Both the position numbers and the translations under genes were made by a program. Positions 49,022 to 64,000 of a stretch of DNA of 64,000 nt are shown here, piece by piece (positions within the stretch are counted from its first letter, which is position 1; each line of letters opens with the position of its first letter). Origin of the DNA: Acidocella aromatica (lineage in GTDB: Bacteria; Pseudomonadota; Alphaproteobacteria; Acetobacterales; Acetobacteraceae). The notes beneath the pieces are model-generated. The model did no database searches and was not told the DNA's origin. It saw nothing but the letters and a program-made list of their open reading frames with translations. The stretch covers positions 1 to 64,000 of the forward strand of contig NZ_JACHFJ010000013.1 of NCBI RefSeq assembly GCF_014201825.1. The letters are read 5' to 3'.

Positions 49022-50512
49022 ATGGCCGACGCGGAAAAGCCACCGCAGGATGCGATGGCGCAGCACCGGCGGCATCTGGGCCGTGGGTTCAACTGGCTGG
49101 GCGGCGCCACGATCATCGCCAAGGTCACGGATTTCTCCACCATCCTGGTGGTACTGCTGTGCCTGAGCAAGGCGCAGATGGGCATCGGCTCGCTGGTGGT
49201 GTCCATCGGCATGGTGGTGGAGGCGTTCGACGGTTTGGGCACGGGCGACGCACTGGTGCAGGCCAAGGGCGTGAACCGCCGCCAGCTTGATTCGCTGTTC
49301 TGGTTCATCCTGGCCGCCGCGGTGCTGATCGCGCTCCTCACCCTGGCCGCCGCCCCGCTGGTGCAGATGATTTACGGCGTGCCGGGCATGGCGGCGTATT
49401 TCGTGCTGGTGGCGGCCAAGCAGCCGCTGGTGGGCATGGCGGTCATCCCGCTGGCCCGGCTGAACCGGGCTTTGCGCTATGAGCGGATCGCCGCCATCAA
49501 TGTCGGGGCCACGTTTGGCGCGGCGCTGGCGCGGGCGGGCATCGCCTTCGCGGGCGGCGGGGCCTGGGCCCTGGCGGGGGGCTATGCCGCGAGCGGCGTG
49601 TTCATCCTGGCGGGCGCGCTGCTGGCGAGCCCGTTCAGACCAAAACCGCGCTTCAACTTCGCCGAAATCGCACCGCTGCTGCAATTCGGCTGGCGCTCAT
49701 CCTCGGCCAATATTTTCGAACAGATCTTCAAGAATATCGACTTCCTGCTCGTCGGCTGGTTTTACGGCGCAGCGCCGCTGGCGGTGTACCGCGTGGCGTT
49801 CGACGTGGCGATGGAACCGGCCATGGCCATCGGCACCATCATCAACCGCACCGCCCTGCCCGTCTTTGCCCGCGCCGCCGCCGTGCCCGAGCACCTCACT
49901 GGCGCGCTGTTATGGTCCTTGCAACGGCTCACCGTACTCAACGCGCCGCTGATGGCCGGGATCATGCTACTGGCAACACCACTTGCCTCTTTGCTGCACG
50001 ACAGCCAGGGCCATAGCTACGCCGCCGCCGCGCTGCCAATGCAAATCCTGGCCCTGGCGGCGATCCTACGCATTACCTCGCAACTGCTCACCCCGGTGCT
50101 GCTGGCCAGCGGCCAGCCGGGACAAGCGGCACGGCTCTCCGCCGCCACGCTGGGGCTGCTGGGTACGGGTATACTCGCGGCCGGATGGTGCTTCCCGGCG
50201 CAGACCGGCATCGTCGCCGTCTCCACCGTGTGGCTGGCGGTGTATCCACTGCTGCTCGGCTGGGGGATGGTCTATCTGTACCGGCATTGGCGTATCCGCC
50301 CCGGCGCACTGGTCCGGCCCTTTCTCGCCCCAGGCCTCGGCATCGCCATCATGGTCATCGGCACGGAAACAATTCGCCATCTCACCGCCGGGTTCGGGCA
50401 ACAGGTGCAGGCCGGAATCGCACTGGCCGCCACACTGCTCACCTATGGCGGACTCTCCCTGCATGCGCGCATGACGCAGCATGCAACGGTAACGGTCGGG
50501 TCTAAGCGCTAG
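49022..50512 (+). CDS. Wzx-like oligosaccharide/lipid flippase (MOP superfamily)
   Basis: A 496-residue integral membrane protein with about 14 predicted helices and the polysaccharide-biosynthesis (Wzx/MviN-type) pattern: NWLGGATIIAKVTDFSTILVV at the start and QIFKNIDFLLVGWFYGAAPLAVYRVAF in the middle, like the group related to WzxC. Expected to flip a lipid-linked glycan or glycolipid to the periplasmic face. Cotranscribed with the preceding GT4. Its stop TAG shares CTAG with the convergent PIG-L gene. Confidence 0.85.
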   Translation: MADAEKPPQDAMAQHRRHLGRGFNWLGGATIIAKVTDFSTILVVLLCLSKAQMGIGSLVVSIGMVVEAFDGLGTGDALVQAKGVNRRQLDSLFWFILAAAVLIALLTLAAAPLVQMIYGVPGMAAYFVLVAAKQPLVGMAVIPLARLNRALRYERIAAINVGATFGAALARAGIAFAGGGAWALAGGYAASGVFILAGALLASPFRPKPRFNFAEIAPLLQFGWRSSSANIFEQIFKNIDFLLVGWFYGAAPLAVYRVAFDVAMEPAMAIGTIINRTALPVFARAAAVPEHLTGALLWSLQRLTVLNAPLMAGIMLLATPLASLLHDSQGHSYAAAALPMQILALAAILRITSQLLTPVLLASGQPGQAARLSAATLGLLGTGILAAGWCFPAQTGIVAVSTVWLAVYPLLLGWGMVYLYRHWRIRPGALVRPFLAPGLGIAIMVIGTETIRHLTAGFGQQVQAGIALAATLLTYGGLSLHARMTQHATVTVGSKR

Positions 50513-51255
50513 TCCAGCACCCGCGCAGCTTTGCCCCAGCGCCATAGGCGCAAGCGGGAAATGTCGAGCAGCGTCTCGCCATGCAACGGGTGTAGCGCTC
50601 CCGCAGGGGGCTGGGCGTAGAGCGTCTCACGCCGGGGCCAGCGGTAAGAGAGTATCCAGGTCCAGGCGCCATGGCGCAGGTAGGTCCAGGCCCAGCGCCG
50701 GGCCAGGAGCACGTTGGGCCGACGGAGTTCGCGGCTCGTCCAGCAGGGCTGGGCAGCCAGTTGCCGGGCCAAAGGCAAGCTCAGTGGTGCCACATAGTTG
50801 GAGAACCAGACCGTAAAGCCCAGTTCCGCTTGCAACGCGCAGACCGCTCGGTACACCTGCACATGTTCAGGATGCCCGTATTCGCCCCAAGGATTATGGG
50901 TGAATACATTGCCATACCCCGCCAGCACGGGACGCAACGCCGACACCAGCTTGGCAAAATTCGCCTCGTAGCGCGCCCTGCCCTCAGGTTCGGCGATCTC
51001 GACGCCATAGGGCGTGGGCTCAGCGCGCTCCCAATCCACCAGCTTGCGCACCCCGCTCTCGGGTATTTGCAGGTCGGTGAGGTTGGGCAAAGCCAGCGCC
51101 GCCACGGCGCGGCGGCGGGCGGCGGAGCGCTTGGGATTGCCGTACAGGTCGCCGAAGCAAAACACGATCTTGTCGGCGGCGGGCAAGGCGGAACTCAGCC
51201 AGAGGATCTCGTCATCCGGGTGCGCCACCACCACGGCACTCTTGCCCGTCGTCAT
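50509..51255 (-). CDS. PIG-L / LmbE family de-N-acetylase
   Basis: A 248-residue zinc-dependent deacetylase with the family motif VVVAHPDDEILW (A-H-P-D-D metal/base residues, 11-15) and the second metal site GHPEHVQVYRA. Relatives deacetylate GlcNAc-phosphatidylinositol (PIG-L), GlcNAc-inositol (MshB) or lipid-linked GlcNAc. It is the last gene of the operon acp-spt-GT4-PIG-L, overlapping the GT4 stop by 4 bp, so the likely substrate is an N-acetylhexosamine put on a sphingolipid by that GT4; this is inference. It contains no signal peptide, so it should act at the cytosolic face. Confidence 0.82.
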   Translation of the reverse strand: MTTGKSAVVVAHPDDEILWLSSALPAADKIVFCFGDLYGNPKRSAARRRAVAALALPNLTDLQIPESGVRKLVDWERAEPTPYGVEIAEPEGRARYEANFAKLVSALRPVLAGYGNVFTHNPWGEYGHPEHVQVYRAVCALQAELGFTVWFSNYVAPLSLPLARQLAAQPCWTSRELRRPNVLLARRWAWTYLRHGAWTWILSYRWPRRETLYAQPPAGALHPLHGETLLDISRLRLWRWGKAARVLD

Positions 51256-52418
51256 TCCTGTTCCAGCAGCGAGTCGTAGAGGTCTTCCAGCACCGCCGTC
51301 TGCCGCGTGATGTCGAATTTCTGCGCCGCACGTTCGCGGGCCGCAGCCCCCATGTTCCGGCGCAGCGTTTCATCGCCCAGCAGAGCGCCGATTTTTGACC
51401 CCAAAGCTTCCGGGGCACGCTCGGGCACCAGAAACCCGGTCTGCCCATCCGCCACCACCTCGGGGATGCCACCCAACGCCGAACCGATCACCGGCACGCC
51501 GGTCGCCGCCGCTTCCAGCGTGACCATGCCCAGCCCTTCGACCCGCCCGGACGAGGTGCGCACGCTGGACAGCACCAGCATGGCGGCCCGGCGCATGCGG
51601 GCGAGCACCTGCGCGTGCGGCATCGCGCCCAGGAACGCCACGCGCCCCGCCAAGCCGCAAACTTGGGCCAGCTTCTCCAGCTTGGCGCGCAACGGCCCAT
51701 CGCCGATGATGACCAACCGAGCGTTAGGATGTTGGGGGGCTGCCAGAGCGAAAGCGCGGATCAGGTATTCCGTGCCCTTCACCTCCACCAGCCGGGCGAC
51801 ATGCAGGATTTCCAGCGCTTCTTCCTCGGGCGCGCGCGGGATGATCGCGCCGCAATCCACCCCGATATAATGCACGCGCGTCCGCTCTGCGGGAAAACCC
51901 ATGCCGAGCAGCCGCTCGCGGATGAAATCCGACGCGCAGAGGAACATCTGGCCATACCGCGCCAGACGTTGCCGCCCCAGCGCGTAATGCGCATAGGCCG
52001 GCGAGGCGAGCAGGGCTGCGGTGGAGAGCGTGGCGTCGAAGCCATGGAAGGTGGTGACAAGCGGCACGCCCAGCCGCTTCGCGACCGGCAGGGCATAGAC
52101 CCCCTCCACCCCGAAATGCGCATGGATCAGCGCCGGACTCCGACCTTTCAGCAGGCGCAGGTAGGGGGCCGGGTCCAGCGTGAGCATTTGCCGGGCGATG
52201 AAAGGGATCGGCCAACCTTTCACCAGATCGGACAGCGCCAGCGATTCCGCCCCCGGCGGTGGGGCGCCGTAGCGCAACCGCCCCACGTAAAGCGGGTGGT
52301 AACGGCGCAGATGCTCCGCCTGCTCGGTGATGAAAGGTTCCGACACCTTGAACAGATTGTGCCGGAAGATGGCGACCTGGCGCATCTGCCCCTCGGGCGC
52401 GGGCGGGGTTCCGCCCAT
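51252..52418 (-). CDS. Glycosyltransferase, GT4 family, in the sphingolipid operon
   Basis: A 388-residue GT4 enzyme: N-terminal QVAIFRHNLFKVSEPFITEQ, IHAHFGVEGVYALPVA and TTFHGFDATL (acceptor half), then ILHVARLVEVKGTEYLIRAF, LVIIGDGPLRAKLE and EGLGMVTLEAAATGVPVIGSALGG (the E-x7-E donor site). Starts 4 bp after spt; an internal ATG at 52385 with GAGGGG upstream is a possible alternative start. Being locked between spt and the PIG-L gene, it is a good candidate for adding the first or second sugar to the ceramide headgroup. Confidence 0.85.
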   Translation of the reverse strand: MGGTPPAPEGQMRQVAIFRHNLFKVSEPFITEQAEHLRRYHPLYVGRLRYGAPPPGAESLALSDLVKGWPIPFIARQMLTLDPAPYLRLLKGRSPALIHAHFGVEGVYALPVAKRLGVPLVTTFHGFDATLSTAALLASPAYAHYALGRQRLARYGQMFLCASDFIRERLLGMGFPAERTRVHYIGVDCGAIIPRAPEEEALEILHVARLVEVKGTEYLIRAFALAAPQHPNARLVIIGDGPLRAKLEKLAQVCGLAGRVAFLGAMPHAQVLARMRRAAMLVLSSVRTSSGRVEGLGMVTLEAAATGVPVIGSALGGIPEVVADGQTGFLVPERAPEALGSKIGALLGDETLRRNMGAAARERAAQKFDITRQTAVLEDLYDSLLEQE

Positions 52419-52422
52419 GCCG

Positions 52423-53667
52423 TTACTTCGCTATGGCGAGGACGGGTTCGTCCTGGCTCTTGGCGCCGGCAGCCGGGATCAGCCCCATCTCGCGCCCGGC
52501 CTCGGCGAACATCTCGATGGCATGGTCGATCTGCGCCGGGGTGTGCGCGGCGCTGACGCTGGAGCGCAGCAGGGCCAGCCCCTTCGGCGTGGCTGGCGGC
52601 AGGCTGACATTGGTGTAGAGCCCGCCATGCAGAAGCCGCGCCCAGAAGGCGAACGCGGCTTCCGGCGAGGGCATAACGGTGGAGACCACCGGGCTCGGCT
52701 CCGGCCCAACGGTGAAGCCCAAAGCGGCCAGGCCGTTATACAAACGGTTGGCGTTCTCGGTGAGCTGGCGGCGCAACACTGGGCGGGTCTGCAACTGGTG
52801 CAGGGCTTCCAGCGTGGCGGCGATGACGCCCGGCGGCAGTGAGGCCGTGAACATATAAGGCCGGGTGACGACGCGAAGGATGTCGAAGCCCTCGGCATCG
52901 CTGACGCAGAAGCCGCCGACGCCGCCCAGGCTCTTGGAGAAGGTGCCGACGACGAAATCCACGTCCGCCTCGACGCCCGCGGCCTCAGCCAGACCGCGCC
53001 CGTTCTCGCCCAGAACGCCCATCGAATGCGCCTCATCCACCACCAGATAGGTGTCCGGGTAGCTGCGCTTCACCGCCGCGAATTCCTTCAGCGGCGCGGT
53101 GTCGCCCAGCATGGAGTAGATGCCCTCGACGACGATGACCTTGTCGCCCGGCACGTCCTTCAGGCGGCGCAGGCGGTTGTCCAGATCCTCGGGGCTATTG
53201 TGGCGAAAGCGCGTGACCTGCGCGTAGCCGAGCCGTGCGCCATCATAGATGCTGGCATGCGAATCAGCGTCCAGGATCAGGTGGTCGTCCTTGCCCGCCA
53301 GGGCGGAGAGCATGCCGAGATTGGCCTGATACCCGGTGGAGAACACCATGCCATGCTTGCGGTTGAAGTACGCCGCCAGCGCCTGCTCCAGCTCCTTGTG
53401 CCCGGCATAGCTGCCATTGGCGATACGCGAGCCAGTGGTGCCAGTGCCGTACAGCTCCGTGGCCTTCACCGCCTTGGCGATGACGGCCGGATCGTAGGTC
53501 AGGCCCAGATAGTTGTTCGTGCCAAGCAAAAGGACCTTCTGGCCCTTGAGCACCGCCTCGGTGGGCGAAAGCACAGAGTCGAACGACACGTTGAAGGGAT
53601 TAGCGCCAGCTTCCTCAAGCTGACGGTACTGCGCCGCCAGGGACGCGAACTTGGTAAACAGCGACAT
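52423..53667 (-). CDS. spt: Serine palmitoyltransferase
   Basis: A 414-residue alpha-oxoamine synthase that condenses L-serine with an acyl thioester to 3-ketosphinganine. Close to bacterial Spt of Sphingomonas/Caulobacter type: SPTEAVLKGQKVLLLGTNNY, STGYQANLGML, LDADSHASIYDG, VVEGIYSMLGD, VDEAHSMGVLG and the PLP lysine in VVGTFSKSLGGVGGFCVS. The HASIYDG and TFSKS(L/V)G segments separate it from KBL and BioF. It lacks membrane helices, as bacterial forms do. Follows the acp gene by 4 bp, as in Caulobacter. Confidence 0.93.
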   Translation of the reverse strand: MSLFTKFASLAAQYRQLEEAGANPFNVSFDSVLSPTEAVLKGQKVLLLGTNNYLGLTYDPAVIAKAVKATELYGTGTTGSRIANGSYAGHKELEQALAAYFNRKHGMVFSTGYQANLGMLSALAGKDDHLILDADSHASIYDGARLGYAQVTRFRHNSPEDLDNRLRRLKDVPGDKVIVVEGIYSMLGDTAPLKEFAAVKRSYPDTYLVVDEAHSMGVLGENGRGLAEAAGVEADVDFVVGTFSKSLGGVGGFCVSDAEGFDILRVVTRPYMFTASLPPGVIAATLEALHQLQTRPVLRRQLTENANRLYNGLAALGFTVGPEPSPVVSTVMPSPEAAFAFWARLLHGGLYTNVSLPPATPKGLALLRSSVSAAHTPAQIDHAIEMFAEAGREMGLIPAAGAKSQDEPVLAIAK

Positions 53668-53671
53668 ACGC

Positions 53672-53923
53672 TTAAGAGCCAGCCTTCAAATTTTGCATGG
53701 CAGCGATCAAGTCGCCGACCGTTTCAATCTCAGCAATCTTGTCGAGCGGCACGGAGATATCCAGCCGGTCCTCGATCTCCATCACGAAATCCATCACCGC
53801 GACGGAATCGAGCCCTAGATCCTCGACGATATGCGTTTTTTCGGTAATCTCGACCGGTTTGGGCAAAGATGAGCGCAACGTCTCGAAAATGATCTCACGG
53901 ATATCCCCGACCAAATCACCCAT
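53672..53923 (-). CDS. Acyl carrier protein dedicated to sphingolipid synthesis
   Basis: An 83-residue carrier protein: IREIIFETLRSSLPKPVEITEKT, then the 4'-phosphopantetheine serine in DLGLDSVAVMDFVMEIEDRL (DSV instead of the DSL of AcpP), ending TVGDLIAAMQNLKAGS. Directly upstream of spt; in Caulobacter an equivalent ACP (AcpR) is loaded by a dedicated acyl-ACP synthetase and thought to supply Spt. First gene of acp-spt-GT4-PIG-L, divergent from lptF. Confidence 0.9.
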   Translation of the reverse strand: MGDLVGDIREIIFETLRSSLPKPVEITEKTHIVEDLGLDSVAVMDFVMEIEDRLDISVPLDKIAEIETVGDLIAAMQNLKAGS

Positions 53924-54148
53924 GTCCTTGCTGCCAAACTGTTGAGTGAACCCGCCCGCGCGAACGCCAAACGCCGTGCAACGACAAATTCATATCAACG
54001 CCTATACATGCCACGGCAAATTATTTAAAGAGCAAGCAGGTCGCGATGGCTGTCTTTTACGGGCAGGCCTGCGGGGTTCCCTTGTGCCGCGCGCTGCCCC
54101 ATGGCTTGGCAAGGCACCGGCAAGACCGGGAATGAATGGTTTAACGCT
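53924..54148. other. Divergent promoter region between acp and lptF
   Basis: About 225 bp with an AT-rich core (53985-54035) that probably holds promoters of both the acp-spt operon (-) and lptFG (+). A short open frame from 53946 has no coding character. I see no clear operator. Confidence 0.4.
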
Positions 54149-55273
54149 TTGATCCTCAACCGTTATCTGACCCGGGAAATCAGCCGGCCATTCGCTGTCA
54201 TCCTCGGCATTCTCTGCGTGCTGTTCACGGGCTATTCCGTCGCCTCCATCCTTTCGGACGCGGTGAGCGGCCTGCTGCCCACCCTCACCATCGCGGAGTT
54301 GACCGGGCTGAAGCTGCTGATCGCGCTGGACGTGCTAATCCCGATCTCGCTCTATTTCGCGGTGCTGCTCTCCTTCGGGCGGCTCTATGGTGATAGCGAG
54401 TTCACCGCCATGTGGGCGCTGGGGGTTCAGCCCACGCAGATCGCGCGGATCGTGCTGTCTCTCGCCGGGATCGTTGCCCTGGCGGTGGCCGCGCTCTCGC
54501 TGGAGGTGCGGCCCTGGGCTTATCAGACATCGCACAGCGTGACCTGGCATGGCGCCACCAGCCTGGATGTGAACGCCATGCAGGCCGGCACCTTCTATAC
54601 CAGCGAGGACGGGCAGCGAGTGATCTTCCTCACCCACCGGGCCGGCCCCGGCGCCCCCGCGCAGGACGTGTTCGTACGCCGCCAGCTCGCTGGCCATACC
54701 GAGGTGATTTTCGCCAAGCTGGCGTCATCGCTGCAGCAGAGAGCCGCGAGCGGCCAGCATGAGGTCTACCTCACCAACGCGCATGTCTATGAGATCTACC
54801 CGCCCGAGAGCGCGCAGAACGACCAGATCCTCAATGCGCAGGGGCTGATCATCGACCCCGAGAGCGCGCCCGGCGCGGCTCCGGCCTATAATCCCATCAC
54901 CGCCGACAGCCTGGATCTCATGCGCTCCAGTTCGCCGCGCGACATCGCCGAGCTGGAATGGCGGCTCTCCACCCCCATCTCCACCCTGCTTCTCGCCCTG
55001 CTGGCCGTGCCGCTGAGCTACAGCAGAGTGCGGCAGGGTAAATATGCCAAGTTCGGCCAAGCGATCCTGATCTATGCCGGGTACTACCTGCTCTGCACCA
55101 CGGCGCGCACCTGGGTGGAGCACGAAATGATCGGCACGCTGCCCGGCATTTGGTGGGCGCCCGCTCTGCTAGCGCTGGTGCTCACACTGATCCTGGCCAC
55201 CCCGCATTGGCGCAACCGGCGCGCCGCCAAGGCCAGGGCCGCAGCCGCAAAAGCGGGAGCCAACGCCTCATGA
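54149..55273 (+). CDS. LptF/LptG-family permease (LptF-like)
   Basis: A 374-residue protein with the YjgP/YjgQ architecture: three N-terminal membrane helices (PFAVILGILCVLFTGYSVA; LKLLIALDVLIPISLYFAVL; ARIVLSLAGIVALAVAAL), a periplasmic jellyroll of about 150 residues (FYTSEDGQRVIFLTHR), and three C-terminal helices (PISTLLLALLAVPLSYSRVR). In LPS export LptF and LptG form the LptB2FG extractor. I prefer the TTG at 54149 because families begin (M)ILNRYLTREI; an ATG at 54101 would add 16 unlikely residues. Its place between sphingolipid operons is unusual. Confidence 0.85.
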   Translation: MILNRYLTREISRPFAVILGILCVLFTGYSVASILSDAVSGLLPTLTIAELTGLKLLIALDVLIPISLYFAVLLSFGRLYGDSEFTAMWALGVQPTQIARIVLSLAGIVALAVAALSLEVRPWAYQTSHSVTWHGATSLDVNAMQAGTFYTSEDGQRVIFLTHRAGPGAPAQDVFVRRQLAGHTEVIFAKLASSLQQRAASGQHEVYLTNAHVYEIYPPESAQNDQILNAQGLIIDPESAPGAAPAYNPITADSLDLMRSSSPRDIAELEWRLSTPISTLLLALLAVPLSYSRVRQGKYAKFGQAILIYAGYYLLCTTARTWVEHEMIGTLPGIWWAPALLALVLTLILATPHWRNRRAAKARAAAAKAGANAS

Positions 55274-56349
55274 ACCTGCTCGACCATTACATCTCGGCCA
55301 CGGTGCTGCGCGGCTTTCTGCTCATCGTCGCGGTGCTGACCGTGCTGTTCAGCCTGCTCGCTTTTGTCGAGCAGCTCGGCTTTGTCGGCCAGGGGCATTA
55401 CAGCGCCAAGGACGCGCTGCTCTGCGTGCTGCTCACGGCACCCTACCGCGTGGTGCAGATCACCCCCGTGGCCATGCTGCTGGGCGCGCTGCTGGCACTC
55501 GGTGGCCTCGCGCGCAATTCGGAGCTGATCGCCTTCCGCGCTCTGGGCGTGTCGGAGACACAGATCGTCGGGGCGCTGATGAAGCTCGCGGTGCCGATCG
55601 CCGTCGCGCTGTTCCTGATCGCGCAATTCGTGATCCCGCCGGGTCAGCTGATGGCCCAGCACGTCCAGGCCGCAGCCTCGGGCGAGGAAGCCCCCCTGCG
55701 CAGCGCCGGGGGGTTCTGGGTGGAGCATGACCGCCAGTATCTCAACGTGCAACGCTTCGGCTACGGCAATGTGCCTGAGAGTATCGACATCTACACCTTC
55801 AACGACGACGGCAGCCTGAACAGCTACACCCATGCCAAGCGCGCCGAGGTGGAGCCGGATGGCACATGGATGCTGATCGGCGTGCTGCAGAAAACCGTCG
55901 ACGCCACGCATTTCACCACCATCACGCTGGACGCGCTGCCCTGGCCGTCCTTCATCTCCTCGCATCAGTTGCGGCTACTGATGCTACCGCCGGAGATGAT
56001 GCCGCCCATCGCGCTGTACCGCTATATCGGCGAGCGCAAGCGCCTGGACCAGCAGGCCCAGCGCGACGAGCTGACATTCTGGACCATGGTCAGCGTGCCG
56101 CTCTCGCTGTTCGGCATGGCCATGATCGCCGCCCCATTCGTGTTCGGCGTGCAGCGCATGCAAGGGGCCGGACGGCAGCTGCTCATCGGCGCGCTGCTCG
56201 GCATCGGGTTTCAGGTCGGCCAGCAGGTGATTTTCTATCTAGGCCTGCGACTCAGCCTGAACCCGGCCATCACGGCGTTGGCGCCCTCGGTCGCGCTGAT
56301 AGGCTGCGCGGCCTATCTGATCCGCCGTATGCAGGTGGAGCTGAAGTAA
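55270..56349 (+). CDS. LptF/LptG-family permease (LptG-like)
   Basis: A 359-residue partner of the preceding gene: MNLLDHYISATVLRGFLLIV, helices to about 125, periplasmic jellyroll (VEHDRQYLNVQRFGYGNVPE), then C-terminal helices with FWTMVSVPLSLFGMAMIAAPFVFG and RRMQVELK at the end. Its ATG overlaps the lptF stop (ATGA), and its stop is 3 bp from the convergent CDP-alcohol phosphotransferase. No lptD, lptA, lptB or lptC is nearby. Confidence 0.87.
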   Translation: MNLLDHYISATVLRGFLLIVAVLTVLFSLLAFVEQLGFVGQGHYSAKDALLCVLLTAPYRVVQITPVAMLLGALLALGGLARNSELIAFRALGVSETQIVGALMKLAVPIAVALFLIAQFVIPPGQLMAQHVQAAASGEEAPLRSAGGFWVEHDRQYLNVQRFGYGNVPESIDIYTFNDDGSLNSYTHAKRAEVEPDGTWMLIGVLQKTVDATHFTTITLDALPWPSFISSHQLRLLMLPPEMMPPIALYRYIGERKRLDQQAQRDELTFWTMVSVPLSLFGMAMIAAPFVFGVQRMQGAGRQLLIGALLGIGFQVGQQVIFYLGLRLSLNPAITALAPSVALIGCAAYLIRRMQVELK

Positions 56350-56352
56350 AGT

Positions 56353-57270
56353 TTAGAGCCGAGCCGCGTGGTCGAGGAACAGCCGGTAGCGCCGGCGCTG
56401 GCTGGCCAGCAGCCAAGCCATGATGGCGCTGAAACCGAAAACCTCGAACAGGAAATAGAACATCGGCATGCCCGCCACCGCGAACAGGAAAATCGCGATG
56501 GTGCGGTAATTCGCCGAGAGGATAGACCAGCGGCGCACCGAGGGGGCAAACGTCTCGCGGTAGTCCCGGCGCAGTACGGCCTCGCATTCCGGCTTGGCGG
56601 CTAGAATCGTCTCCAGCTCCCGGTTGAATCCGGCGGCACCGCCCGTGGCCGCAATCTGAACCCGCGCGTATAGGCCATGCAGCAGATTGGCCGCGCGCTT
56701 GAGCATGGGCTGCCCCTGGCGCTCCGCCTGCGGCGGATGCAAATCCGGCAGCGCGGCGGATTTCCGCCCCCAGCCCCAGAAATTATATTGCTGGCGCTGC
56801 AGCTCATAGGCAGCCGACTGCACCGCGTGGCACAGCCCCGAAACCGCCACCAGCCCCCAGACCCAGGTGCCGACATAGCGGCTGAGCGTCAGCGCCAGGG
56901 CGACATAGACGGCGGTGAATGTGACATAGTCGCAGATGCCATCGATGATCTTGCCCAGCTCGGAAAACGAGTTGGTGAGCCGGGCGAGTTGGCCGTCGGC
57001 GCCGTCCAGCACATGCCAAGCAAACATCAGCGCGAAGCCGAGCACGCAGAACCACGGATGCGGGTACCAGTGATAGGCGAGCGCCGCCGCCACACCGCAG
57101 CCCATGCCGGCCAGCGACACGGCATTAGGCGAAATGCCCAGCCGCGCACAATGCGGGACAATCCAGGCGGAGAGAGGGTGGATGACGTAGAGGTTGGTCG
57201 GCTCCTCGATTTCCGAGGTACGGCGGACGGGTTCGGCTGGTGCCGCCCCACCGGGAATGTCCTGCTGCAT
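56353..57270 (-). CDS. CDP-alcohol phosphotransferase, candidate inositol-phosphoceramide synthase
   Basis: A 305-residue membrane enzyme with the complete CDP-alcohol phosphotransferase motif: D89-G-A-D92-G93...A-R97, then G106...D110...D114 (DGADGQLAR and GKIIDGICD). About six to seven helices; longer than PgsA (about 180-200), with extra C-terminal helices and a cytosolic insert (about 155-245). The family moves a phospho-alcohol from a CDP-activated donor, or a phosphatidyl group from CDP-DAG. Because it is cotranscribed with an inositol-phosphate synthase and a nucleotidyltransferase, I infer CDP-inositol as donor and ceramide (or DAG) as acceptor. PI-phosphate synthase is the alternative. 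Confidence 0.82.
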   Translation of the reverse strand: MQQDIPGGAAPAEPVRRTSEIEEPTNLYVIHPLSAWIVPHCARLGISPNAVSLAGMGCGVAAALAYHWYPHPWFCVLGFALMFAWHVLDGADGQLARLTNSFSELGKIIDGICDYVTFTAVYVALALTLSRYVGTWVWGLVAVSGLCHAVQSAAYELQRQQYNFWGWGRKSAALPDLHPPQAERQGQPMLKRAANLLHGLYARVQIAATGGAAGFNRELETILAAKPECEAVLRRDYRETFAPSVRRWSILSANYRTIAIFLFAVAGMPMFYFLFEVFGFSAIMAWLLASQRRRYRLFLDHAARL

Positions 57271-57278
57271 GGCGGAGG

Positions 57279-57995
57279 TTACAGCTGTCCGGCTTCGAGC
57301 AGCTGTTCCGCCTTGGCGAAGGCGGCCGGGTCGTCGACGTCGACCCAGAGGCGGTTCTTAATGTCGAACACGCGGGCCTTGCCCCATTCGGCCAGCACAT
57401 TCATCGCACCGGAGATGCTGTCATCGCCGCGGGACTGGCTTTCCACCAGCGCGTCGAACATCACCGGGGTGCAGAGGAACACGCCCGTGTCGAAGCAGTT
57501 GAAGTCGCGGATAACCTTGCCGATGTGCATGAGCTTGTCGCCCTGGCACTTCACGCGGGTCACGTCCTCGGGATCGTTCAGCGGGCTGTCGATGTTGAAA
57601 TCCACGGCCAGCGTCACGGTACCCGGCTCGAAGGGTGCTGCTATCAGCGCCCGGAAGATCTCCGGGTCCACCAGATGGTCACACATCGTCAGCAGAAAAG
57701 GTTCGTCGATAAACTGCTTGGCCGTGAGCACGGACACGCCATTGGCGCGGTCCCAGGCACGGTTGAAGATGCGGGTGATGCGCACGTCAATGCGCTTGGC
57801 GATCTCACCCAGCTTCTCCTGCAGCGTTTCCGCCCGGTAGCCGGTGACGACGAAAAACTCATCGACTCCGGCAGCCTGGGCATTGCCGATCACGCGTTCG
57901 ATCAGCGGCACGCCCTTGATGGGGATCAGGGGCTTCAGCTCGCCTTTTTCACGGAGCCTCGTGCCCTGACCGGCCGCGACAATCAGGCATTTCAT
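57279..57995 (-). CDS. Nucleotidyltransferase, candidate CTP:inositol-phosphate cytidylyltransferase
   Basis: A 238-residue GT-A-like sugar-phosphate nucleotidyltransferase: MKCLIVAAGQGTRLREKGELK-type P loop, KPLIPIKGVPLIERVI, DRANGVSVLTAKQFID, the metal Asp in LTMCDHLVD, FDTGVFLC and DVDDPAAFAKAE. The pattern is nearest to LicC-like phosphocholine and archaeal inositol-1-phosphate cytidylyltransferases (IPCT, first domain of the di-inositol phosphate enzymes) rather than to RmlA/GalU. Its ATG overlaps the stop of the inositol-phosphate synthase gene, which makes inositol phosphate the natural substrate. Specificity is inference. Confidence 0.78.
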   Translation of the reverse strand: MKCLIVAAGQGTRLREKGELKPLIPIKGVPLIERVIGNAQAAGVDEFFVVTGYRAETLQEKLGEIAKRIDVRITRIFNRAWDRANGVSVLTAKQFIDEPFLLTMCDHLVDPEIFRALIAAPFEPGTVTLAVDFNIDSPLNDPEDVTRVKCQGDKLMHIGKVIRDFNCFDTGVFLCTPVMFDALVESQSRGDDSISGAMNVLAEWGKARVFDIKNRLWVDVDDPAAFAKAEQLLEAGQL

Positions 57996-59128
57996 CCGAC
58001 GGCCGAGACCTTCACCGGCGCGGAGTAGCGGTTGATGAACGTCTCGGTCATCTCATACGCCACATCGTCGGTGTACTGCACCGGGGGATGCTTGCAGAAA
58101 TAGGCGCTCGGGCCTTCCAGAAGGCCACCAATACCGTGATCCAGCGCCAGCTTGCAGCAACGGATCATGTCGATGACCACGCCAGCGGAGTTCGGCGAAT
58201 CCTGCACCGAGAGGCGCAGTTCCAGATCCATCGGGACATCGCCGAAGAGCTGGCCTTCCATGCGGATGAAGCAGATCTTGTTGTCGTTCTGCCAGGGCAC
58301 GTAGTCGCTCGGGCCGACATGGATGTCTTCGTTCTCCATGCGCTTCTTGGCGACAGCCTGCACCGCCTCGGTCTTCGACTTCTTCTTGGAAGCCAGGCGG
58401 TCCTGGTTCTTCATGTTGAGGAAGTCGGTATTGCCGCCGGTGTTGAGCTGGTAGGTGCGCAGCAGCTTCACGCCGCGCTTGGCGAAGATATCCGTCAGCA
58501 CGCGGTGGGTGATGGTGGCGCCCAGCTGGGACTTGATGTCGTCGCCGATGATGGGAATGTTGCGGGCCTTGAAGCGCTCGGCGTAGCTCTTATCCGAGGC
58601 GATGAACACCGGCATGTTGTTGATGAAGGCCACACCGGCCTCCAGCGCGCATTCGGCGTAGAAGCGAGCGGCCTTCTCGGAGCCCACCGGCATGTAGTTC
58701 AGCAGCACTTCGGCGCGGGTGCGCTTCAGCTCGGCCACGATTTCTTCCTTGGTCAGCTCCGTGGCGGTGGAGCGCACGAAGGTGCGGTCCTCGTCATAGG
58801 CGGCCATATGCTCGGAGATGCCGTCCAGCACCTGGCCCATCTGCACGGTCACGCCGCTGTCCGGGATGTTGGACTCGAACACCTTGGTGCAGTTCGGCTT
58901 GGCGAAGATAGCGCGGCTAACGTCCTGGCCGACCTTGCGGGCGTCCACGTCGAACGCGGCGACGACCTCAATATCGCACGGCTTGTAGCCGCCGATCTCG
59001 GTGTGCATCAGCCCGACCACGCCTTCGCGGCAGCGCTCCGGAGTATAGTAGTGGATGCCCTGAATCAGAGAGCTCGCACAATTCCCGATCCCGGCAATCG
59101 CAATCCGGATGCGGCTTTTATTCGCCAT
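57992..59128 (-). CDS. ino1: Inositol-3-phosphate (myo-inositol-1-phosphate) synthase
   Basis: A 378-residue NAD-dependent synthase making inositol phosphate from glucose-6-phosphate. Bacterial-type motifs: IAIAGIGNCASSLIQGI (NAD loop), LLNYMPVGSEKA, IGDDIKSQLGATITHR, YQLNTGGNTDFLNM and SKKKSKTEAV (catalytic lysines). Starts at the ATG at 59128 (MANKSRIRI). First gene of ino1-cytidylyltransferase-CDP-alcohol phosphotransferase. Inositol synthesis is rare in proteobacteria, so its presence in a ceramide cluster is informative. Confidence 0.93.
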   Translation of the reverse strand: MANKSRIRIAIAGIGNCASSLIQGIHYYTPERCREGVVGLMHTEIGGYKPCDIEVVAAFDVDARKVGQDVSRAIFAKPNCTKVFESNIPDSGVTVQMGQVLDGISEHMAAYDEDRTFVRSTATELTKEEIVAELKRTRAEVLLNYMPVGSEKAARFYAECALEAGVAFINNMPVFIASDKSYAERFKARNIPIIGDDIKSQLGATITHRVLTDIFAKRGVKLLRTYQLNTGGNTDFLNMKNQDRLASKKKSKTEAVQAVAKKRMENEDIHVGPSDYVPWQNDNKICFIRMEGQLFGDVPMDLELRLSVQDSPNSAGVVIDMIRCCKLALDHGIGGLLEGPSAYFCKHPPVQYTDDVAYEMTETFINRYSAPVKVSAVG

Positions 59129-59531: not shown

Positions 59532-60500
59532 TCACGCTAATCCTGGCAGCCCGTGGAGGGCGGAACAGACCAGCGCGCTGTACAGTTGGCTGTCGCGGTG
59601 TTCGCGCACATAGCCGGGGCTGATGCGCGCGACGTAAGGCTTACTGCGCACCGAGGCATACCAATGCACGACTCTGGTATCCGGCGGCAGTACCTGTTCC
59701 AGCCTGGGGGCGCGGCTGGGCCTGAACCAGTGCTCCGAAATCTCCGGTGCCAGCGGGTAGAACACCGGTGGCGGATGGATGGTCAGCTCCTCCGCCGGGT
59801 AATGGCTGATAAGCGCCTGCAGCAGGTCCGGCCCCAGGGCGTAGGGTTCTGTCTGGCGTTCCCGCGGCAGCGCCAACATGGCGCGCAGATAAGCGCCGAA
59901 CAGCGCCGCCCCCGGTGTTGCGCCCATCACGGCGTTGTTCACGCCGGGGAAATACCACTCCTCAACACGCCGGAACGCCCGCCAGCCGCCGGGGAGTAGG
60001 CGCATGGCCTTGCGCAGCACATCTAGCGTGAGGTGCTTGGCCCAGATGAGCGGCGAGCGCGAGCTGCGCACCGCATGCGGCCAGACGATGAATTCTGAGC
60101 CGACGAATTGCGGCACCCCGAGCAAGGGGCGCAGCGAGGCGACGGTGATGGTGTCCAGATCGAGATAAATCCCGCCTTCAAGATACAGGATGGCGGCGCG
60201 CAGGACGTCGGCGCGCATCACCGGGCTGGTCAGCCTTGCATAAAGCGCGGTCAGGCCTTCCCCTACCCCAAGCCTAGTCTGCGCCTGGGCAAGGCGGGCC
60301 ATGGGGTCGGTCAGCTCCAGGCGCACACCGGAAGCTTGGCGCAGGGCGCGCAACTCGGGGCCGTCTTCCAGCTCATCGGTATGGTGCAGGACCACTTCGT
60401 CCATCCCGCCACGCTCGGCGGCGGAAAGCACGGCGAACACATAGGCCCAGGGAAGACGCTTGCCGATCCAGCAGAAATGCACGCAGGCGGGAATGGTCAT
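59532..60500 (-). CDS. GT32-type glycosyltransferase with DXD motif
   Basis: A 322-residue enzyme: TIPACVHFCWIGKRLPWAYV at the N-terminus and the Gly_transf_sug signature MRADVLRAAILYLEGGIYLDLDT with the metal/nucleotide-sugar DxD, then NNAVMGATPG. The fold is shared by bacterial capsule and O-antigen transferases and by yeast Sur1/Csh1, which mannosylate inositol phosphoceramide. I start at the ATG at 60500 (MTIPAC); an upstream start at 60533 is possible. Divergent from the acyl-AMP ligase, upstream of ino1. Acting on inositol phosphoceramide is a hypothesis from context. Confidence 0.8.
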   Translation of the reverse strand: MTIPACVHFCWIGKRLPWAYVFAVLSAAERGGMDEVVLHHTDELEDGPELRALRQASGVRLELTDPMARLAQAQTRLGVGEGLTALYARLTSPVMRADVLRAAILYLEGGIYLDLDTITVASLRPLLGVPQFVGSEFIVWPHAVRSSRSPLIWAKHLTLDVLRKAMRLLPGGWRAFRRVEEWYFPGVNNAVMGATPGAALFGAYLRAMLALPRERQTEPYALGPDLLQALISHYPAEELTIHPPPVFYPLAPEISEHWFRPSRAPRLEQVLPPDTRVVHWYASVRSKPYVARISPGYVREHRDSQLYSALVCSALHGLPGLA

Positions 60501-60675
60501 GCGGAGCTGGTCTGCCAATGGTGGGGGTCGCAAATGGGCGGGGTAGATAGGCCGGGGCGGGATGGGCCGTCAACCGCCCCCGTCTGACGCCAAGCTGGGC
60601 TCATTGTAACGGCATTGCCATTCCAACTCGACTCTGTTAGCCCGGAAAGCCGTATCAACGCCTTATCCCAGCAGT

Positions 60676-62415
60676 ATGACAGAGCTATCGCCAACCCGTT
60701 TTTCCGGGCAGACCATACGTTACGCCGACTTCGGCACCATTGCCGAGGCGCTGGACTATGCCGCCCAAGGTAACGCCGGGTTCAACTTCTATTCCGGTAA
60801 GGGACAGTTGGTTGAAACCCTGCCCTACAGTGCACTGCGCGAGCAGGCGCTGAGCCTTGCCGCACGCATGCTGGGAGCCGGGCTGCGCCCGGGCGACAAG
60901 GTCGCGCTGATCGCCGAAAGCGATGGCGACTTCACCCGCACCTTCTTCGCCTGCCAATATGCCGGGCTGGTGCCCGCCCCGCTGCCGCTGCCCGCGGCCT
61001 TCGGCGGCAAGGACGGCTATATCGCCCATCTGCGCCGCATGGTCGCCAGCGCCCATGCCGTGGCCCTACTTGGCCCAGCCGTACTGGAGGCGTGGCTCGC
61101 CGAGACCGCGCAAGGGCTGGATCTGCGCCTCGCCGGCACCTTCTCCCTGCTGGATAACGTGCCCCCCAGCACCGAGCCCCTGCCCGCGCAGAACCCCAAT
61201 TCGCTCGCTTATCTGCAGTTTTCCTCGGGCAGCACGCGTTTCCCGCTGGGTGTGGCCGTCACGCAACATGCCTTCATGGCGAATGCCCATTGCATGGCGC
61301 GCTACGGCCTCGCGGTAACTGCCGAGGACCGCTGCACCACATGGCTGCCCTATTACCATGACATGGGTCTGGTCGGCTTTTTCCTGATGCCGATGGCATG
61401 CCAGCTCTCGGTGGACATTCTGCCGACGCGCGAATTCGCCCGCCGCCCGCTGCTCTGGCTGGACCTGATCGGCCGCAATCGCGGCGCCGTCTCGTTCAGC
61501 CCGTCTTTCGGCTACGAATTGTGCCTGCGCCGCGCGGAAACCGCCTCCATCGAAGGACTGAACCTCTCCAGCTGGCGCCGTGCCGGCATTGGTGGCGACA
61601 TGGTGCGCCCCGCCGTGCTCGAGCGCTTTGCCGAGCGCTTCGGCCCGCAGGGCTTCTCCACCGGAGCCTTCGTGCCCTGCTACGGCATGGCAGAGGCGAC
61701 CCTGGCGCTCAGCTTCACCCCGCCCGGCCAGGGCGCGGTGCAGGATGTCATCGACGGCACAATCCTGGAAGACGAGCACCGCGCCGTGCCCGCTCATGCA
61801 GGCAGTGCCCGCACCCGCAGCTTCGTTTTGTGCGGCCGCATGCTCCCGGACCATGAAGCCGAAATCCGCGACGAGAACGGCGAACTTCTGCCTGACCGGC
61901 AGGTGGGGCGCATCTATGTGCGCGGCCCTAGCCTGATGCTCGGCTATTATGGCGAACCGGAAGAAACCGCTCGCGTGCTGGACGCCGATGGCTGGCTCGA
62001 TACCGGCGATCTCGGCTATTTCCTGGACGGCCAGCTCGTCATCACCGGCCGCGCCAAGGACCTGATCCTGGTGAATGGCCGCAATGTGTGGCCGCAGGAC
62101 CTGGAATGGGCGGCGGAAGCTGATATGCCCCTGCTACGCAGCGGCGATGTCGCGGTGTTCTCGGTCGATAATGGCACGGCTGAAGAGGTTGTGGTTCTGG
62201 TGCAGTGCCGCACCACCGATCCGGCGGCACGCGAGGCGCTGATCCACGACATCACCAAGTTCTTCCGCGGCCGCCATGGCCTGGAGACCCGCGTGGTTCT
62301 GGTTCCGCCGCGCAGCCTGCCGCAGACCTCGTCGGGCAAGCTCAGCCGCAGCCGCGCCCGCGCGATGTATCTCGAAGGTGCCTTCCAGCCGGCCAAGACC
62401 TCCAACGCGGCATGA
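60676..62415 (+). CDS. Fatty acyl-AMP ligase / acyl-ACP synthetase of the ceramide pathway
   Basis: A 579-residue ANL-superfamily enzyme: ATP loop LQFSSGSTRFPLGV, TTWLPYYHDMGLVGFFL, PCYGMAEATLAL, VRGPSLMLGYY, DTGDLGYF, GRAKDLILVNGRNVWPQDLE and the adenylating lysine in PQTSSGKLSR. The YYHDMGLVG stretch is typical of fatty acyl-AMP ligases, which hand acyl groups to carrier proteins rather than CoA. Caulobacter has a matching gene (AasR) that charges the sphingolipid ACP; here the ACP is at 53.7 kb. Its TGA overlaps the ATG 62412 of the following reductase region. Confidence 0.9.
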   Translation: MTELSPTRFSGQTIRYADFGTIAEALDYAAQGNAGFNFYSGKGQLVETLPYSALREQALSLAARMLGAGLRPGDKVALIAESDGDFTRTFFACQYAGLVPAPLPLPAAFGGKDGYIAHLRRMVASAHAVALLGPAVLEAWLAETAQGLDLRLAGTFSLLDNVPPSTEPLPAQNPNSLAYLQFSSGSTRFPLGVAVTQHAFMANAHCMARYGLAVTAEDRCTTWLPYYHDMGLVGFFLMPMACQLSVDILPTREFARRPLLWLDLIGRNRGAVSFSPSFGYELCLRRAETASIEGLNLSSWRRAGIGGDMVRPAVLERFAERFGPQGFSTGAFVPCYGMAEATLALSFTPPGQGAVQDVIDGTILEDEHRAVPAHAGSARTRSFVLCGRMLPDHEAEIRDENGELLPDRQVGRIYVRGPSLMLGYYGEPEETARVLDADGWLDTGDLGYFLDGQLVITGRAKDLILVNGRNVWPQDLEWAAEADMPLLRSGDVAVFSVDNGTAEEVVVLVQCRTTDPAAREALIHDITKFFRGRHGLETRVVLVPPRSLPQTSSGKLSRSRARAMYLEGAFQPAKTSNAA

Positions 62416-63364
62416 CCCCCCCCTTGTCGCCGTAACCGGCGCAACGGGGTTTCTCGGCCTGCATCTGGTAACGGCCCTCGCCAAGGCGGGGGCCAATATC
62501 CGTATTCTGGTGCGGCGCGACCCGGCGCATGAAGCCTGGAAAGGCTTAAGTTTCGAGACGATCCGAGGCAGTTTGGAGGATGAGACCGCCCTCACCCGGC
62601 TGACCAAGGGCGCAGATGCCGTCATCCATGCCGCCGGGCTGATCAAGGCGCTAGACCGCGCCACTTTCCTTCGCGCCAACCGCGACGGCACTGCGCGAGT
62701 GACCCGCATGGCACGGCAGCACGCCCCAGGGGCGCGATTCATCCTCATCTCTTCCCTCGCCGCGCGGGAGCCGCAGCTTTCCTCCTACGCCTTCAGCAAG
62801 CGCGCCGCCGAGGACACAGCATGGCAGGTATACCAAGATGCGCCGGAGCGGCTCGTGATCGTCCGCCCCCCCGCTATTTACGGCCCGTGGGACCGCGAAA
62901 CCCTGGCAATCTTCAAATCCGCGCGCTTTCCCATCGTCCCGCTGGCAAGTCAGAGCCGTGTAGCAACAATCCACGTCTCCGACGCCGCCGAAGCCATTGC
63001 GCGACTCGCGCTGGGGGCTGGTGAAGCTGGGCTCTATGCCCTCGCCGATGACCACCCGGAAGGGTATCCGATGACGGAGCTACTGGCTGAGGCAGCGCGC
63101 GCCATGGGCCGGGGGCAGCCCCGGTTCCTGCCACTTCCGGCGCGCATCACCCGGCTAGCTGGCCGGGCCTCGGGTGCTTGGGGCCGGCTGCGCGGTCAGG
63201 CTCCGGTGTTCACGGCAGAAAAGGCCGAGGAGATCCTGCATCCCGATTGGTCGGTGAGCGCCGCCGAGCTGCTGCCTGCTTATGTGCACGAGCCCCGCCT
63301 CGGTCTGGCCGAAGGGTTTGGACAGACCGCCGCTTGGTACAAGGCAAAAGGCTGGCTAAAATAA
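62378..63364 (+). CDS. NAD-dependent epimerase/dehydratase-type reductase, probable ceramide reductase (start disrupted)
   Basis: An extended SDR: TGATGFLGLHLVTAL (NAD(P) loop), VIHAAGLIKAL, LISSLAA (Ser), and the catalytic pair YAFSK; C-terminal DWSVSAAELLPAYVHEPRLG. It corresponds to the reductase (CerR) that reduces 3-ketoceramide in Caulobacter. The natural start would be ATG at 62412, coupled to the ligase stop, giving MTPPLVAVTGATG, but the C8 run at 62416-62423 is one base short: the ATG frame hits TAA after seven codons. The in-frame alternative is GTG at 62378 without a visible ribosome-binding site, which would add about 13 Pro/Arg-rich residues. Hence sequence error, phase variation or atypical start. 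Confidence 0.8.
   Translation: MPSSRPRPPTRHDPPLVAVTGATGFLGLHLVTALAKAGANIRILVRRDPAHEAWKGLSFETIRGSLEDETALTRLTKGADAVIHAAGLIKALDRATFLRANRDGTARVTRMARQHAPGARFILISSLAAREPQLSSYAFSKRAAEDTAWQVYQDAPERLVIVRPPAIYGPWDRETLAIFKSARFPIVPLASQSRVATIHVSDAAEAIARLALGAGEAGLYALADDHPEGYPMTELLAEAARAMGRGQPRFLPLPARITRLAGRASGAWGRLRGQAPVFTAEKAEEILHPDWSVSAAELLPAYVHEPRLGLAEGFGQTAAWYKAKGWLK
62416..62423 (+). repeat. Homopolymeric C8 tract at the reductase start
   Basis: Eight cytosines four bases after the A of ATG 62412. A C9 tract would bring that ATG into frame with the reductase. Confidence 0.7.
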
Positions 63365-63413: not shown

Positions 63414-64000
63414 TTACAGAGGCTTTTCGTAGATCCGGTAGGTCTTGTAGGCCTCCGACCCCAGACTCTCATTCATTCGCCGCATCGGGAAATTGTCCTC
63501 AAGAATCCAAGACAGCTCGATATGGGTGAAGCCTTTTTTCAGCCCCTCGCGGCGCACGGCATCCACCATCAGGAAGGGCAGCAAACTGCCGATCATGTCC
63601 TGCGCGGCCGTGCGGCGAACGCCCATCAGCGGCACGCGGGCCGTCTTCAGCCCCTTCACCTTCAGGCGCCACAACAGCTTGGCCCAGCCAAAGGGCAGCA
63701 ACTTGCCGTTCAGCCCGCGAATCGCCTCGTTGAGGTTGGGCAACGCGATGAGGAAGCCCACCGGCTCGCCATTGCGTTCCACCACGCTGGTCAAACGCGG
63801 GTCGAGCAGCGGCTTCAGCGATTTGGCGAGATAATCCGTCTCCGTCTCGGTCAGCGGCACGAAGCCCCAGTTACTCGCCCAGGCATCGTTGAAGATGCTG
63901 GTGACGGTGCGGATTTCCTCATTATAGCGCTTGAAGTCGATCTGTCGGACAGTCAGGTCCTTGGGCAATGGACGGTCGAGCAGGCGGCGCACGCTGGCGG
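63414..64000 (-). CDS. GNAT-like N-acyltransferase, probable bacterial ceramide synthase (5' end outside window)
   Basis: The last 195 codons of a protein that runs off the window edge; the frame is still open at 64000. Visible: VRQIDFKRYNEEIRTVTSIFNDAWASNWGFVPLTETE, RNGEPVGFLIALPNLNEA, and the C-terminal HIELSWILEDNFPMRRMNESLG, with YKTYRIYEKPL at the end. This is the YghO-like acyltransferase group that includes the Caulobacter bCerS enzyme, which N-acylates 3-ketosphinganine. Relatives have about 370-390 residues, so roughly half is missing. Being convergent with the probable reductase gene supports this reading. Confidence 0.8.
   Translation of the reverse strand, partial: ASVRRLLDRPLPKDLTVRQIDFKRYNEEIRTVTSIFNDAWASNWGFVPLTETETDYLAKSLKPLLDPRLTSVVERNGEPVGFLIALPNLNEAIRGLNGKLLPFGWAKLLWRLKVKGLKTARVPLMGVRRTAAQDMIGSLLPFLMVDAVRREGLKKGFTHIELSWILEDNFPMRRMNESLGSEAYKTYRIYEKPL

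Follow-up and report, generated by a model that had tools for sequence, protein, structure and literature searches.

The window analysed here is a stretch of 64,000 nucleotides from Acidocella aromatica (positions 1–64,000 of contig 13, in a genome of 2.88 Mb and 29 contigs), and its minus strand carries three adjoining genes that we call INO1, NT and PT. INO1 (57992–59128, 378 aa) encodes an inositol-3-phosphate (1L-inositol-1-phosphate) synthase (Pfam Inos-1-P_synth, 123.5 bits). NT (57279–57995, 238 aa) encodes a predicted CTP:inositol-1-phosphate cytidylyltransferase (NTP_transf_3, 59.2 bits), and PT (56353–57270, 305 aa) a class I CDP-alcohol phosphotransferase (CDP-OH_P_transf, PF01066; 49.8 bits against a cut-off of 22) that we predict to transfer phosphoinositol to ceramide. 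All three families score over their Pfam cut-offs. INO1 and NT overlap by 4 bp in an ATGA (57992–57995), and 8 bp separate NT from PT; these coordinates confirm an earlier sequence-only reading, which had described the three genes as translationally linked. By eye, no clear Shine–Dalgarno sequence lies ahead of the PT start codon, so PT may depend on coupling to NT.

The three genes are surrounded by those for a ceramide backbone. On the same strand lie genes for serine palmitoyltransferase (SPT; 52423–53667, 414 aa; NCBIfam NF047599, 659.5 bits, passing the cut-off of 500) and for an acyl carrier protein (ACP; 53672–53923, 83 aa; PP-binding, E 6e-12) that is AcpR-like by position. The plus strand encodes a fatty acyl-AMP ligase (FAAL; 60676–62415, 579 aa; NF006624, 861 bits, cut-off 600), the acyl ligase of the ceramide pathway, and a short-chain dehydrogenase/reductase (SDR; 62276–63364, start uncertain) with Epimerase/SDR domains that adjoins FAAL in relatives and that, from its position, is presumably a 3-ketosphinganine reductase (CerR). 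A GNAT-type protein of 376 aa (minus strand; 63414–64000 in the window, the gene reaching contig position 64544; L034:3415–4545) has a weak Acetyltransf_1 match slightly below the cut-off, and we take it, on the same grounds, to be bCerS-like. A fatty acid hydroxylase gene (contig 64541–65332) follows directly beyond the window end. With SPT, ACP, acyl ligase, SDR reductase and GNAT-type synthase all present at the locus, the gene set around INO1-NT-PT is, judged by homology, that of alphaproteobacterial ceramide synthesis, and the setting within a ceramide cluster that had been proposed for the trio stands.

Conservation of the trio among relatives

A scan for NT with one genome per species returned at least 63 loci, a lower bound because the scan was seeded from two short peptide patterns. 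They occur in Acidocella, Acidisoma, Nitrospirillum, Azospirillum, Emcibacter, Kordiimonadaceae and various metagenome bins; the genus loci and genomes discussed below overlap with this wider set. Where both genes were present (58 loci), the 4-bp overlap of INO1 and NT was found in 45, among the genus loci in 14 of 16. Of the 13 others, 11 had a spacing of 6–28 bp, one (L106) overlapped by 1 bp and one (L073) was fused in frame. In 34 of these 58 loci PT came immediately after NT in the same orientation, and in 2 it stood 2.6–4 kb downstream; it lay on the opposite strand in 11 and was absent from the stretch in 11. In all 18 stretches from the genus, as much of the trio as was visible stood with ceramide genes, in a deviating order in L050, L051 and L053. 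The linkage of INO1, NT and PT is thus real, conserved and more than chance. Named isolates with homologues include Acidocella facilis, A. aminolytica, Acidisoma cellulosilyticum and Nitrospirillum, so the proposal made below can be tested.

Two observations concern single members of this set. Bins titled as Geothrix (Acidobacteriota) and as Nitrospirales also gave NT loci (L069 and L094); L069 is a nearly full Acidocella-type cluster, so mis-binning is possible there. In Nitrospirillum viridazoti (L083; G071 contig 3, 1170743 and 1180172), SPT is encoded twice at a distance of about 9 kb, and each copy shares about 75% identity with the SPT of the window.

Inositol phosphate and its predicted activation

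INO1 is closest among PDB chains to 1gr0 (E 5e-115) and scores 440.5 bits against the NCBIfam model mycothiol_INO1, under its cut-off of 638. A GDDIKSQ-like stretch and NTGGNTDF, which we take to serve in NAD binding or catalysis, were kept in 55 of 55 near-full-length relatives.

The nearest PDB chains to NT by sequence were the inositol-1-phosphate cytidylyltransferases (IPCTs) 2xme, 4mnd and 4jd0 (E 2e-17 to 3e-16), with 4y7t next at 3e-7. NT had been called LicC/IPCT-like; the LicC part of this label is too loose, as the phosphocholine enzyme 1jyk matched at E 1.5e-4, well below the IPCTs. The AlphaFold2 model of NT (mean pLDDT 95) gave 4jd0 (TM-score 0.87) and 2xme as its top two Foldseek matches, other sugar nucleotidyltransferases ranking close behind; by sequence and by fold, the nearest relatives are therefore IPCTs. 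NT shares with these enzymes of Archaeoglobus fulgidus (2xme and 4mnd) and Thermotoga maritima (4jd0) both the fold and the linkage to a CDP-alcohol phosphotransferase, but it stands alone in a ceramide cluster, unfused to a di-inositol phosphate phosphate (DIPP) synthase, and is 22–28% identical to them over the fold alignments. Its best NCBIfam model was also that of IPCT/DIPPS (NF041135), at 118 bits against a cut-off of 580. This model spans both domains of the fused Thermococcales protein, so a single-domain NT can hardly reach the cut-off. A scan of viral contigs with NT found no relative.

A rival identity has to be excluded because NT also shares its fold with CpgD of Caulobacter, which the available text of two papers describes as the CTP:phosphoglycerate cytidylyltransferase of a ceramide pathway (PMC12275187; PMC13228409). 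NT is 29–31% identical to CpgD-like proteins. In a residue alignment, all 18 NT rows and the A. fulgidus IPCT carried N-G-x-S, M-x-D-H and D-T-G, and all 5 CpgD-like rows had N-G-D-T, M-K-V and E-S-I-G at these stretches. The motifs of the CpgD-like rows appear to fit the CTP- and glycerate-site residues that the accessible part of PMC13228409 names for CpgD (Asn110-Gly111-Asp112, Met147 and Ser170). At the corresponding sites NT of the window has M104, T146 and D169, where the CpgD-like rows have N, M and S (5 of 5), so the CpgD glycerate site is not found in NT; the sites were placed by motif and spacing, without the CpgD sequence itself, and Ser170 least surely.

Gene fusions bear on the same question. 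An NT profile run against 337 genomes of a class-level sample (E ≤ 1e-20, with SPT called at E ≤ 1e-80) separated three score classes: above 400 bits (2 genomes, both with SPT), 165–181 bits (8 genomes, none with SPT) and 79–86 bits (7 genomes, all with SPT). Five proteins of the lowest class are the CpgD-like rows of the residue alignment. From the middle class, 7 of the 8 genomes were fetched (all except G135), and they held six fusions and one single NT (L208). Three of the fusions join INO1 to NT in frame through a linker (L205, L207 and L210; the last two also have an unfused CDP-alcohol phosphotransferase close by), and three join NT to PT (L204, L206 and L209). The in-frame INO1-NT fusion of L073, which lies beside SPT and bCerS genes, could be a one-base assembly error at the ATGA junction; L073 and L203 (G322:C355) are apparently one record, so this fusion counts once, and weakly. 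Both kinds of fusion tie NT proteins to inositol phosphate and to a CDP-alcohol phosphotransferase. As a separate observation, the NT-PT fusions of the class-level genomes in which SPT was not detected suggest di-inositol phosphate or phosphatidylinositol (PI) synthesis in those organisms.

NT is most plausibly an inositol-1-phosphate cytidylyltransferase that likely forms CDP-inositol. Homology, structure and gene fusions make a strong case for the predicted roles of INO1 and NT, and the inositol phosphate and CDP-inositol steps of the sequence-only reading are borne out by nearest structures, residues and fusions alike.

The phosphotransferase and its proposed acceptor

PT carries the class I motif D-x2-D-G-x2-A-R...G-x3-D-x3-D (D89, D92, G93, A96, R97, G106, D110 and D114), which was invariant in 47 of 47 alignment rows, the window included. 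Its first PDB match by sequence was human cholinephosphotransferase (E 1.3e-6), an enzyme that uses a soluble CDP-linked donor to place a headgroup on a lipid alcohol. The best NCBIfam matches were archaetidylinositol-phosphate synthase (49 bits, cut-off 180) and phosphatidylinositol phosphate (PIP) synthase (41 bits, cut-off 170), and they stopped at model positions 119 and 118; the match to the PgsA1-type PIP synthase covered 17–118 of 197 positions and was therefore not full length. Nor does PT match a DIPP synthase in full, as it covers the IPCT/DIPPS model only at 250–345 of 419. Two NT-PT fusions (L204 and L206, the two scanned) matched that model to position 418 of 419, with 271 and 270 bits. 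PT thus matches the CDP-binding half only, where the fusions match the whole model, which suggests that its acceptor half is unlike that of the enzymes that accept inositol phosphate. Past residue 250, R256 is the sole arginine invariant in the 47 rows; we compared it with the arginine pair that serves inositol phosphate in the PIP synthase of R. salmoninarum (R153 and R191), in a half of the protein that is not reliably alignable.

In Acidocella, the distribution of PT largely agrees with that of SPT: the two were concordant in 35 of the 37 genomes in which both were sought (18 with both and 17 with neither). One genome had PT without SPT (G019, where SPT is cut by a contig end) and one SPT without PT (G001). 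INO1 was found as a single copy in 21 of 38 Acidocella genomes and never without other genes of this cluster: 19 of these had PT, G061 yielded PT in a follow-up search with the PT profile, and G026 was the last. More widely, 39 of the 63 NT loci entered a search for SPT, those left out being mostly Acidocella or short contigs; SPT of at least 287 bits was present in 33 of these NT-bearing genomes, compared with 43 of 337 genomes of the class sample at E ≤ 1e-80. SPT, bCerS or FAAL lay on the same stretch in 32 of 52 PT loci. Where PT was absent beside NT (11 genomes), the PT profile found it elsewhere in 10, in G098 in two pieces; this search took in three more genomes besides the 11. In G074 and G322, INO1-NT and PT are on different contigs and PT lies within the ceramide cluster. 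Emcibacter- and Kordiimonadaceae-type genomes have their ceramide cluster apart from the INO1-NT pair, and when one CpgA-like and one CpgD-like protein served as queries, the ceramide stretches L231, L232, L237 and L238 gave no match at E ≤ 1e-4.

We consider it probable, on these homologies and gene neighbourhoods, that INO1-NT-PT supplies the headgroup in a pathway to inositol phosphoceramide in which phosphoinositol passes from CDP-inositol to ceramide directly. INO1 would convert glucose-6-phosphate to inositol phosphate, NT would combine this with CTP to give CDP-inositol, and the neighbouring SPT, ACP, FAAL, SDR and bCerS enzymes would supply ceramide. At the inner membrane, PT would then transfer phosphoinositol from CDP-inositol to the primary hydroxyl of ceramide and release CMP. 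Inositol phosphoceramide would arise in one step that needs neither CDP-diacylglycerol (CDP-DAG) nor PI, and no phosphatase or exchange of the Aur1 type. The parts of this proposal are not equally firm: the linkage to NT and the NT-PT fusions in relatives are good grounds for CDP-inositol as the donor, and neighbourhood and co-occurrence make ceramide the likeliest acceptor, with moderate confidence.

Several observations weigh against this proposal. Six membrane helices can be read in the AlphaFold2 model of PT (mean pLDDT 91.9; helices judged by eye), and the three or four extra C-terminal membrane helices of CEPT/CPT-type enzymes are missing from it; according to the accessible part of PMC4634129, three or four further membrane helices are typical of CDP-alcohol phosphotransferases that act on lipid acceptors. 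On this model, the count would speak seriously against a lipid acceptor, unless a helical block added at about 189–251 does that work. All 26 top-ranking Foldseek matches of PT belonged to the class I CDP-alcohol phosphotransferases, and a single one reached E ≤ 0.001; this confirms the superfamily and does not split CDP-DAG-type from soluble-CDP-type enzymes. The NT tree joined NT and the fusions weakly (85/56), with the two IPCTs on long branches; it is undecided between the fusions and the CpgD-like proteins, so the identity of NT rests on residues and fusions. The co-occurrence counts, among them the 35 of 37, are uncorrected for shared ancestry. G001 (85% complete) has SPT, PIG-L and GT32 (both described below), and PT and INO1 were not found in it; G026 (81% complete) has INO1 and GT32, and PT and SPT were not found. 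SPT of at least 280 bits was not found in 6 of the 39 NT-bearing genomes (G077, G078, G086, G088, G096 and G099), all titled as metagenome-assembled genomes, G077 (4.1 Mb) and G099 (5.8 Mb) being large. On 20 of the 52 PT stretches there was no SPT, bCerS or FAAL at E ≤ 1e-20, some of these contigs being short and L072 and L075 ending in a piece of SPT. G085 has NT and SPT, and the PT profile did not find PT there; in G083, one of three genomes read in which PT lies away from NT, PT is outside the ceramide cluster. The earlier suggestion that ceramide is the direct acceptor thus gains from neighbourhood and co-occurrence, loses from the six helices of the model, and is one that we still infer. 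Neither of the two findings that the sequence-only reading had named as refuting it, a preference of NT for another sugar or choline phosphate or CDP-DAG as the donor of PT, came up in this computational analysis.

A different acceptor would lead to a different lipid. PT could transfer the headgroup from CDP-inositol to diacylglycerol to give PI, either as the end product or for another enzyme to pass the headgroup on to ceramide. A nucleotidyltransferase and a CDP-alcohol phosphotransferase beside INO1 are read in this way in the available text of PMC9246714, and the 20 PT loci without ceramide genes are in keeping with it. PT is concordant with SPT in Acidocella even though every one of these bacteria should have diacylglycerol, which speaks against this route, as do the ceramide genes around PT in G074 and G322, whose INO1-NT pair lies on a separate contig. 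Between 47774 and contig position 65332, a scan of 16 genes showed no HAD, PAP2 or phosphatase gene, and hence no HAD or PAP2 protein for an exchange of the headgroup. We regard transfer to diacylglycerol as unlikely.

We hold it still less probable that PT accepts inositol phosphate, either as a PIP synthase dependent on CDP-DAG or as a DIPP synthase, the product of NT going to a solute or another use. The best NCBIfam matches of PT are to archaetidylinositol-phosphate and PIP synthases, and the six-helix core read in its model is that of those enzymes; yet the matches end after the CDP-binding half, far under the cut-offs, while the two scanned fusions reach the model end. Furthermore, the fusion-type genomes of the 165–181-bit class (8 of 337) are without SPT at E ≤ 1e-80, the opposite of the pattern in the window, and there is no phosphatase among the scanned genes. 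We think it very improbable that NT is of the CpgD type, with the module making a phosphoglycerate (or other) ceramide headgroup and INO1 serving another product: the fold family, the sequence identity, the ceramide pathway and the proposed feed to a CDP-alcohol phosphotransferase (available text of PMC12275187 and PMC11324152) agree with this, but the residues of the 18 NT rows, the INO1-NT fusions and the restriction of INO1 to Acidocella genomes with other cluster genes do not.

Direct transfer from CDP-inositol to ceramide, as we propose it, has several partial precedents. The closest functional parallel, absent from the sequence-only reading, is Caulobacter CpgD together with CC_1159, which we equate with CpgA by gene numbering. 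The ceramide (di)phosphoglycerate pathway of Caulobacter shares with the Acidocella cluster the ceramide core, a cytidylyltransferase of the same fold and a CDP-alcohol phosphotransferase, and, in the accessible part of PMC11324152, a flippase and second LptF/LptG copies; it differs in its CDP-glycerate donor and in a ceramide kinase step (PMC12275187, accessible part). Its CpgD-like enzymes form a separate NT clade with other residues, and a CpgA-like protein of L211 (401 aa) is 30% alike to PT over only 92 residues.

With Bacteroides (BT_1522–1526, or the alternative cluster of a nucleotidyltransferase, a CDP-alcohol phosphotransferase and a HAD protein) the Acidocella cluster would share an inositol sphingolipid as end product. 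As far as the available text of PMC9246714 goes, the BT route begins with PIP and PI, and the alternative route is proposed to run through PI-DAG and a HAD protein; in Acidocella, ceramide genes instead surround PT, and the scanned genes include neither HAD nor PAP2. The sequence-only reading had presented Bacteroidetes as a CDP-DAG/PI case only; this needs correction, since for the alternative, B. vulgatus-type cluster a CDP-inositol route with diacylglycerol as first acceptor has already been proposed (Heaver et al. 2022, PMC9246714, in the text available). The same text reports an inositol-type sphingolipid in Novosphingobium acidiphilum, the genes for which it gives as not found. Among the papers listed by our literature searches, with subscription titles largely outside them, we found no direct route from CDP-inositol to ceramide and nothing on this gene set.

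Inositol phosphoceramide is best known from fungi and plants and may arise here by a different kind of enzyme. The fungal inositol phosphoceramide synthase Aur1 is a PAP2-type enzyme with PI as its donor; the product would be the same, but PT is a class I CDP-alcohol phosphotransferase. In Rhodothermus, Jorge and colleagues reportedly described in 2015 a CDP-inositol route to inositol phospholipids; there, too, CDP-inositol is said to donate to a lipid alcohol, which is that of a glycerolipid where we propose ceramide. The cluster bears on how inositol sphingolipids are made outside Bacteroidetes. If the proposal is true, there is a second, Aur1-independent chemistry for inositol phosphoceramide, with a Kennedy-type step in sphingolipid headgroup synthesis, and, taken with CpgD, one bacterial ceramide core accepts different CDP-activated headgroups.

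Candidate glycosylation and export genes

Further genes of the cluster could modify or move such a lipid. The genes for ACP, SPT, a GT4 glycosyltransferase (51252–52418, minus strand) and a PIG-L family deacetylase (50509–51255, minus strand, 248 aa; PF02585, 30.9 bits, cut-off 28.2) are consecutive on one strand. The GT4 protein is a candidate N-acetylglucosamine (GlcNAc) transferase to inositol: its nearest PDB chains include BshA (5d00), D-inositol-3-phosphate glycosyltransferase (7qsg) and PI mannosyltransferases. NCBIfam places exopolysaccharide glycosyltransferases at the top (EpsE, 130 bits), with MshA in fifth place (96 bits). PIG-L has AHPDDE at residue 11 and HPEH at 128; among 25 relatives, 24 contain AHPDDE and 16 an H-[PS]-[ED]-H stretch. 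A GT32-type glycosyltransferase (PF04488, Pfam E 3e-9; 333 aa) is encoded at 59532–60533 on the minus strand. PDB searches with GT32 and PIG-L gave nothing under E 0.08, the nearest to PIG-L being MshB at E 0.08. PIG-L was found in 19 of 38 Acidocella genomes, all 19 with SPT, the sole SPT-bearing exception being G005 (82% complete); GT32 was found in 20 of the 38, 18 of these with SPT.

On the plus strand lie paralogues of LptF (54101–55273; PF03739, 186.8 bits) and LptG (55270–56349; PF03739, 236.5 bits); the LptG reading frame is listed from TTG 55150, and by eye we judge ATG 55270 the likelier start. LptF/LptG at 54101–56349 are a second pair: in 12 of the 38 Acidocella genomes, picked for completeness, four such genes were present in 6 of 6 with SPT and two in 6 of 6 without. 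The plus strand also encodes a MOP-family flippase (Wzx/TuaB-like; 49022–50512, 496 aa; Pfam Polysacc_synt_3, E 2e-48), with 131 bits against the NCBIfam MOP flippase model and thus under its cut-off of 273, and a second GT4 glycosyltransferase (47774–49018; Glycos_transf_1, E 1e-16). The second LptF/LptG pair points to a dedicated sphingolipid exporter. By analogy, the pattern of LptF/LptG and flippase would fit the proposal for phosphosphingolipid export in Caulobacter, which in the accessible part of PMC11324152 involves second LptF/LptG copies and a flippase.

The combination of a GT4 enzyme and PIG-L is the chemistry of glycosylphosphatidylinositol (GPI) and mycothiol synthesis, and PF04488 also includes fungal inositol phosphoceramide mannosyltransferases; this chemistry and family membership lead to a glycosylated product. 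GT4 would add GlcNAc to the inositol of inositol phosphoceramide, PIG-L would strip the acetyl group to leave positively charged glucosamine, and GT32 (and the second GT4) would extend the glycan. The flippase and the dedicated LptF/LptG pair would carry the lipid to the outer membrane, in the manner of lipopolysaccharide. It is possible, though we hold it only tentatively, that the cluster makes an exported bacterial glycosyl inositol phosphoceramide by GPI- and mycothiol-like logic, with an inositol phosphoceramide synthase that is not related to Aur1 of fungi. The glycosylated form is speculative, and GT4 and PIG-L could act on another sphingolipid sugar. Beyond the window, at L034:9601–16004, open reading frames identified by eye form an ATP-synthase-like operon in an N-ATPase-like order, with beta and epsilon first.

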